Notes under the pieces: generated by a model
What the model was told of the DNA's origin: nothing
The model's input: only the letters and a program-made list of their open reading frames with translations
The model's database searches: none
Assembly (NCBI GenBank): GCA_903853385.1
Contig: CAINTJ010000102.1
Coordinates: forward strand, 1 to 64,000
Source of the DNA: an uncultured Gammaproteobacteria bacterium
GTDB lineage: Bacteria > Pseudomonadota > Gammaproteobacteria > Pseudomonadales > Pseudohongiellaceae
Direction: 5' to 3'
Length of the DNA: 64,000 nucleotides
Program-made: the position numbers and the translations under genes
Part shown: positions 14,589 to 15,701 of the stretch, piece by piece
How the letters are laid out: each line of letters begins with the position of its first letter
How positions within the stretch are numbered: the stretch's first letter is position 1

Positions 14589-15701
14589 TCAGGTCAGGCA
14601 GGCTGGATCAAAAGCATAGCCTCCCTCCAGCCACGCACATACTTCCTGCGCCATCGGATCTGGCAGCCATTGTTGATACAACGCCAGCAAGCGGGATTTT
14701 TCCGCAGCATCAAACTGGACAAGCCCCTGCCACTGAAAGCGTTCGCTATCCTGCGCGAGCTGCGCCAGCACGTGTGGATTGGTGACAACAGCCGCTAACG
14801 AGCACTTGCCGGGTACTGCTTGCTGATAAAGTGCGGCCAGGCTTGCCAGTGGAATTTGCGACAAATAGGCCTGATTCATGGGATTGGCCAGCAGGCCACT
14901 GCACAGTTCTCTGATCGGGGTCAGAGTAAAAACTTCATCCTGATTCAGCAGCGCTCCGGCTTTGGGGTTTTTACTCTGACCGCGTTGATCAAACGGTTGC
15001 AAATGCAGAAACGCTGTCAGGCGTTTGGCATCATTGACCGGATAGTTGTCCCACAGCAGTGGCTTGCGCTGCAGCTTGGCGCCTATTTCGAGCAGATGAT
15101 CGCGTGGGTAGCTATGGGAAATCACCCTGGGGCCTGTCCACAATACATCCACCTCTGCAGGCAAGGCCTGGCCCAGTTGTTCCAGATAATGTTCGGGCTG
15201 CTCGCCGAAATGTTTCACCAGCAAGGGGTCGCTTGAGTAATAGGTCGGACACAACACAAACTTTTCTGCATTGCTGTGCCGGCTGATGCAATCAAAGATT
15301 TGCAGCTGGGTGGTGGCCAGTCCGGGCAATTCACCCAGCATGTCGTCAAACAACACTGCCAGCAGCGGGGCCTGCAGCTGGTTGAGTTGTTCAAGTTTGC
15401 GCAACAGCAGGTCGCGTTTGGTGGCAGAGAAATCCCGATAGAGTTCAAACGGACTAAGGCCAACACCGAATTCGATGCCCAGGCTGGCGCAATGCCGGGC
15501 AAGTGACTTTAGCTCGGTGAAGGTTGAGTCCGGATAAGGCATGAACCATTGCTTGCGCAGATAGTCATCATTCTTGGGCGCGTAAAGATAGGTAGTGAAC
15601 TGTTGCGCCGCCAGAAAGCTGGCATGATCCTGCCGCGCCAGCCAGCTCCATTGCCGCCCAAAAAAACCTTCTACCGTGCCGCAGCGAAAAGGGGGATTCA
15701 C
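14589..15701 (-). CDS. GH84-type beta-N-acetylglucosaminidase (O-GlcNAcase-like), cytosolic, with an in-frame insertion
   Basis: A 370-residue glycoside hydrolase family 84 catalytic domain (NAGidase). Seen in order: GTVEGFFGRQWSW, YLYAPKNDDYLRKQW, the paired catalytic aspartates in LAVLFDDM, CPTYYS, VLWTGPRVIS and LLWDNYPVND, then NPMNQAYLSQ. These match the fold shared with human OGA and Clostridium NagJ. No signal peptide or accessory domain is present, so it should act in the cytoplasm on GlcNAc conjugates. The start is GTG, overlapping the rhodanese stop as GTGA, so the two are coupled. Between PFDQR and IRELCSG lie about 21 extra residues encoded by a palindromic element (14919-14981). 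Confidence 0.85.
   Translation of the reverse strand: MNPPFRCGTVEGFFGRQWSWLARQDHASFLAAQQFTTYLYAPKNDDYLRKQWFMPYPDSTFTELKSLARHCASLGIEFGVGLSPFELYRDFSATKRDLLLRKLEQLNQLQAPLLAVLFDDMLGELPGLATTQLQIFDCISRHSNAEKFVLCPTYYSSDPLLVKHFGEQPEHYLEQLGQALPAEVDVLWTGPRVISHSYPRDHLLEIGAKLQRKPLLWDNYPVNDAKRLTAFLHLQPFDQRGQSKNPKAGALLNQDEVFTLTPIRELCSGLLANPMNQAYLSQIPLASLAALYQQAVPGKCSLAAVVTNPHVLAQLAQDSERFQWQGLVQFDAAEKSRLLALYQQWLPDPMAQEVCAWLEGGYAFDPACLT
14919..14981. repeat. REP-like palindromic element inserted in frame in the GH84 gene
   Basis: Perfect 15-bp arms GGTCAGAGTAAAAAC (14919-14933) and GTTTTTACTCTGACC (14967-14981) enclose 33 bases. The total of 63 bases is 21 codons, so the GH84 frame is kept. GGGTCAGAGTAAAA-type ends recur in gammaproteobacterial genomes near REP-associated tyrosine transposases (Y1_Tnp/RAYT). 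That link is recalled, not tested here. Confidence 0.75.

Follow-up and report, generated by a model that had tools for sequence, protein, structure and literature searches.

The DNA analysed here, referred to as the window, is a stretch of 64,000 nucleotides from an uncultured member of the Pseudohongiellaceae. On its reverse strand, a coding sequence of 370 amino acids with a GTG start (14592-15701) encodes a GH84 (NAGidase/O-GlcNAcase-like) protein, which matches the Pfam NAGidase domain (PF07555) at 1.8e-54 and has 5DIY, 2XSA and BT_4395 as relatives in the PDB; GH84 matches are present in 39 of the 145 genomes searched. The paired aspartates of GH84 active sites are catalytic, and the pair found here (D119 and D120; 15342-15347, reverse strand) is intact and invariant among 22 homologues. 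Two further family motifs on the same strand are likewise preserved: DNYPVND (residues 218-224; 15030-15050), in which N219 to D224 are invariant and D218 nearly so across 22 homologues, and NPMNQ (residues 273-277; 14871-14885), conserved in the homologue alignment. The protein bears the marks of its family, namely the NAGidase domain, the Asp-Asp pair and the DNYPVND/NPM motifs.

Between these two motifs, the gene is occupied by a palindrome. Its first arm (14919-14933, forward strand), the 15-mer GGTCAGAGTAAAAAC, is matched by a second arm (14967-14981, reverse strand) that is its perfect reverse complement at 15 of 15 positions, and the two are separated by a 33-nt spacer (14934-14966) that forms the loop of the hairpin and is mostly missing from the sister species' copy described below. 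With two extra bases at each end, the whole inserted palindrome spans 14917-14983; one end reads GGGGTCAG (14917-14924), and the other, GCGGTCAG, differs from it by a single change. The palindrome is the top-ranked short-distance inverted repeat within the window, and as RNA it folds at -28.7 kcal/mol (z = -4.5), a stability equalled by none of 200 shuffles. From arm to arm, the 63 bp (14919-14981, reverse strand) translate into exactly 21 codons, GQSKNPKAGALLNQDEVFTLT, which constitute residues 241-261 of the protein. The coding frame passes through both arms (GGT CAG AGT AAA AAC ... GTT TTT ACT CTG ACC) without a stop, and the open reading frame is uninterrupted by any stop or frameshift across the insert. 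An initial annotation had described this perfect inverted repeat with its 33 intervening bases as an in-frame addition to a GH84 enzyme whose motifs are kept on either side; on all three points the present analysis agrees with it.

The insertion site in GH84 homologues

We aligned 27 GH84 orthologues across the site, of which 23 fall outside the four nearest species. Nineteen of these 23 share one common gap of 19 residues at the insertion point, located between (P)FxxR and the segment that runs up to NPMNQ, and in the remaining four the gap measures 16-18 residues. Distant homologues hence show the clean gap that the initial annotation had proposed looking for. Solved GH84 structures such as 5DIY display a plain junction with no extra residues at this point, the placement in a loop resting on alignment to 5DIY and its relatives; single-sequence structure prediction of the protein was uninformative (pLDDT 36). 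Compared with the homologues, the protein is longer by a net 19 residues (57 nt), since approximately three residues of the original loop are replaced or unalignable; the anticipated gap of 21-22 residues is accordingly corrected to 19. In two congeneric species, G001 and G004, the loop is 12 and 6 residues longer than is typical, and arms are not recognisable in either of these longer loops. Loop length hence varies even without the arms, and the loop appears to tolerate changes in length.

A copy at the orthologous site in a sister species

The closest species, G005 (81% identity), carries GGTCAGAATAAAAATGAAATTTTTACTCTGACC in its GH84 protein. This is the element of the window's species, seated at identical codons, with a spacer shorter by 30 nt and an undisturbed frame; here both ends of the palindrome read GGGGTCAG. 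Since both species keep the gene order aminotransferase, rhodanese, GH84, TonB receptor, the two sites are orthologous. Outside of the insert, the two genes differ by a dN of 0.118 and a dS of 1.02, a dN/dS of approximately 0.12; the host gene has thus been under purifying selection, which suggests that it has been kept functional. The earlier proposal that the element owes its retention to selection on frame fits both this ratio and the in-frame nature of the 30-nt difference, any use of the peptide itself being hypothetical.

The element might be an artefact of assembly or binning, as the window's genome is a draft of 143 contigs. The element, however, lies in the interior of a 126-kb contig, is in frame, and is found independently at the orthologous site in G005, which makes this explanation very improbable.

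Alternatively, TIRYT hairpins (the class to which we assign the element below) could have entered one hot spot independently, a long-spacer form in the window's species and a short-spacer form in G005. Both spacer forms do occur elsewhere in the genus (for example, with a spacer of 3 nt at G003:C95), the codons immediately to the left of the insert differ between the two species (GATCAACGC versus GAAAAAAGG), and the arms are nearer to the consensus than the age of the split would predict. Against this idea, the codon boundary is identical, the right side of the insert, ATGAA(G/A)TTTTTACTCTGACCCCGAT, is common to both species with spacer bases included, and one 30-nt deletion in the spacer accounts for the difference. 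We consider repeated insertion unlikely, and favour a single insertion that predates the split.

The arms are conserved between the two species at 33 of 36 nucleotides, a level reached by 20 of 337 windows along the gene, and at 11 of 12 third codon positions, a level reached by 8 of 337. This excess over the rest of the gene is weak (about 5% of windows do as well) and only suggestive; it may indicate constraint, or else an insertion that came later or took place more than once. Constraint could reflect co-option, whereby the inserted sequence or its mRNA hairpin would be selected for an effect on the enzyme, its partners or translation. Such a role would fit the retention of the frame in two species at a dS near 1, the conserved third positions of the arms, and the very stable mRNA hairpin formed by the insert in both. 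Ten residues from the middle of the insert are nonetheless absent from one of the two species, homologues manage without any of it, and the conservation excess is slight, all of which renders co-option improbable.

A dispersed hairpin family linked to Y1 transposases

The exact 15-nt arm recurs in 22 of 145 related genomes, with up to 23 exact arms in a relative, whereas the reversed control yields one match in total. With one genome per species scanned, at least 118 stretches contain the full palindrome. Gammaproteobacteria account for almost all of them, and the carriers include Seongchinamella unica, symbionts of Solemya and tubeworms, and SAR86 MAGs. A typical copy has the form ATATTTGGGGTCAGAGTAAAAA - spacer - TTTTTACTCTGACCCCAAATAT and mostly measures 60-75 bp from arm to arm. 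Intergenic copies, which the initial annotation had proposed looking for in the window's own genome, were recovered from relatives. Variation of loop length in G001 and G004 without arms might have allowed the palindrome to be read as a coincidental inverted repeat, lying in a loop that is simply hypervariable; the recurrence of the exact arm and its architecture at more than 100 places in other genomes, against reversed controls near zero, rules this reading out.

The outer core of the hairpin, GTCAGAGT, was fixed by our search, and covariation was accordingly judged on the inner stem bases. Over 165 elements, stem positions 13-18 covary strongly, with position 14 paired at a frequency of 0.84 as compared to 0.42 after shuffling. 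It is therefore the hairpin itself, beyond mere sequence, that is conserved. The dominant inner-stem subtype of GTCAGAGT hairpins tends to be species-specific (in G001, G003, G009 and G010), as exemplified by AACTTGATC in G010 and CGAATTTCC in G001, a pattern that would fit co-evolution of the hairpin with the transposase in each lineage. One palindrome lies in a MAG labelled Klebsiella pneumoniae (CAMCQE010000096.1) and resembles copies from aquatic Gammaproteobacteria, which suggests that this record is mislabelled or contaminated.

Arms of the same kind flank transposase genes in relatives of the window's species. In genome G119 (contig C8), a Y1 transposase with an intact HUH motif (NHVHLL) and YIELNPVRAG is bounded by an exact 25-nt inverted repeat, ATATTTAGGGTCAGAGTAAAAACTA, that contains the arm; a Y1/HUH transposase of Seongchinamella unica shows the same layout, and in G003, a species of the same genus as the window's, a transposase (on contig C48) is flanked by a variant arm, GGGGTCAGAGTAATTTGAT. 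For the arm-flanked transposases, Pfam reports Y1_Tnp alone. The initial assignment of the element to REP/RAYT-related mobile palindromes is borne out by these genes. On another contig of G119 (C3:286867-289291), three HUH transposase genes lie in tandem, two of them flanked by inverted repeats of GATCAATAGGGTCAGAGTC, which represents a further subtype within this repeat family.

Within the window's own 143-contig draft genome, we found neither a second exact 15-nt arm nor a canonical Y1_Tnp gene (no match to PF01797, and none flanked by the same arms). The initial annotation had looked to this genome for both, and had named the lack of other arm copies there as grounds for rejecting its reading; taken literally, that is what the genome shows. 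A relaxed search that fixed just the eight-base core does bring out two diverged hairpins, one at C45:1075-1144 and the other, which is intergenic, at C91:8584-8629. Located through a protein of the sister species, a gene on contig C45 that combines Y1 and Bac_DnaA_C domains is common to four other species of the genus, and its HUH motif is degenerate, reading HYQ or EYH where HVH would be expected. G005 contains several hairpins of the subtype found in GH84, and G003 carries canonical transposases; the GH84 copy has the appearance of a relic, left stranded by a subtype that persists in those two genomes.

The Y1/DnaA_C gene has a TIRYT-type hairpin directly downstream in both the window's genome (G000:C45:47-1144; hairpin within 1060-1150) and G005 (C94:2556-3662; hairpin within 2540-2640). 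The spacer of this hairpin, GAAGCGGGTAAACTG, is conserved between the species, but the two sides of the inner stem have changed together (GAGTCGTATTTCC/GGAAATCCGACTC versus GAGTAAAAATTCC/GGAGTTTTTACTC), a pattern that, judged from this pair of sequences, would represent concerted evolution of the arms. A truncated second copy of the start of the gene sits exactly at a contig end (G000:C30, 110987-111073), possibly as the result of a duplication or an assembly break.

Rarity of the hairpin within genes

Among the 115 palindromes with enough flanking sequence to be assessed, only 18 fall within any open reading frame of at least 100 amino acids, as compared to 81% of random positions. Fifteen of these 18 reading frames were scanned for domains, and in none does the hairpin lie inside a recognised domain. 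Where two palindromes occur in long reading frames with clear domains, the hairpin is ahead of the domain, and it likewise precedes the domain of a third spanning reading frame, from the genus. Such reading frames, for ATP sulfurylase (L100), iPGM (L168) and inositol phosphatase (L272), were rejected as in-frame cases, as each hairpin comes before the domain and is probably upstream of the true start; two spanning reading frames in the genus (L263 and L264) were discarded as coding cases, their hairpins being intergenic. Across the 115 palindromes and the copies in the genus, no gene-internal copy other than that in GH84 was found, and elsewhere the family avoids genes.

Relationship to known palindromic elements

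Tyrosine transposases with long terminal inverted repeats that share the sequence GGGGWSAS have been set apart, as TIRYT, from the GTAG class of REP/RAYT systems (PMC3733652, PMC6006769); the names TIRYT and TIRtron appear in PMC3733652 (2013), and the group corresponds to subclass 2.1 in PMC6006769 (2018), whose transposases have a C-terminal HTH/DnaA_C-like domain (PMC6006769). Because the outer end GGGGTCAG at 14917-14924 fits GGGGWSAS (GGGG[AT][CG]A[CG]), and GTAG is absent (GTAG, CTAC, CGTC and GACG all being missing from 14891-15010), we assign the element to the TIRYT-type hairpins and reject a classical GTAG REP or REPIN. The annotated resemblance of the ends to REP/RAYT elements accordingly survives as kinship with a related mobile palindrome, with GGGGWSAS rather than GTAG at its ends.

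The element shares with TIRYT/TIRtron families their GGGGWSAS ends, their inverted pairs and the flanking of HUH tyrosine transposase genes by the arms; dispersal is seen in relatives, with up to 23 exact arms, as compared to one exact copy and two diverged hairpins in the window's own genome. It departs from them in that the GH84 copy is intragenic; in its accessible portion, PMC3733652 reports intragenic GTAG and CGTC REPs and not TIR families. Those intragenic REPs (for example in Opitutus terrae, Rickettsia conorii and Thioalkalivibrio) similarly add 20-30 residues to known enzymes, but belong to another tag class and reside in other host genes. REPINs, inverted REP doublets associated with RAYTs (Bertels and Rainey 2011, PMC3116915), resemble the element in forming a single hairpin from an inverted pair, in size (mostly 60-75 bp), in being mainly extragenic as a family, and in their ties to Y1 transposases; the GH84 element differs by lacking GTAG, by having one continuous arm as its stem instead of two REP hairpins, and by numbering one copy plus two diverged ones in its own genome. 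The palindromic elements of Rickettsia and their Wolbachia equivalents (PMC2229807) are likewise in-frame palindromes in conserved proteins with function apparently preserved. The parallel to them drawn in the initial annotation holds in principle, given an in-frame palindrome within a gene whose function is suggested by the dN/dS of 0.12. The Rickettsia elements are nevertheless longer (105-146 bp, as opposed to 63-67 bp) and frequently intragenic, whereas the GH84 element is linked to TIRYT transposases, has a gammaproteobacterial host and comes from a family for which an intragenic site is exceptional, distinctions that we draw by description.

Discussion

Together, our data are best explained by a TIRYT-type hairpin that entered the GH84 gene ahead of the split between the two species and that has survived as a selfish, frame-neutral passenger in a tolerant loop, a reading to which we assign a probability of roughly 0.85. 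Three observations weigh on the other side: the window's genome has neither another exact copy nor an intact transposase, the loops of G001 and G004 are longer in spite of having no arms, and the arms slightly surpass most of the gene in their conservation between the species. The element itself, its orthologous site and conserved frame, selection on the host gene and the absence of the insert from other species are direct observations. As to mechanism, a non-autonomous hairpin element with GGGGTCAG ends would have depended for its copying on an HUH/Y1 tyrosine transposase that acts on the single strand in its folded form, and this folding-dependent enzyme presumably inserted it into the gene before the window's species and the sister species diverged. 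The hairpin would have been kept because the net change of 57 nt is a multiple of three, the arms leave the frame free of stops, and the loop between DNYPVND and the NPMNQ segment tolerates changes in length. Purifying selection would afterwards have maintained the gene, and an in-frame deletion of 30 nt probably shortened the spacer in the sister species, a gain in the window's species being less likely. The copy is presumably now immobile, and its peptide would have no useful function. We regard it as quite unlikely that TIRYT hairpins serve as a separate source of new protein segments in Gammaproteobacteria, with the GH84 insert, beyond being tolerated, preserved in its nucleotide sequence for some function of the peptide or of the mRNA hairpin in the coding region.

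Rickettsia and Wolbachia already provide palindromic repeats that are translated in frame (PMC2229807), and GTAG and CGTC REPs have been described within genes (PMC3733652). We found no earlier report in the searchable literature of a conserved enzyme that contains a TIRYT-type hairpin, and a full-text search returned no paper containing the arm sequence; the present hairpin, which has an orthologous counterpart in another species, adds a new example. The type of event is rare but already known, and the established principle is unchanged. What the GH84 locus provides is a two-species case in which a selfish hairpin, from a little-studied family linked to a transposase, has been turned into protein; many relatives show the site in its empty state, and the extent to which the family avoids genes has been measured. 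The locus also ties an abundant gammaproteobacterial repeat (the GGGGTCAGAGT hairpins) to its class of transposase, and shows a route by which new loops enter conserved enzymes.
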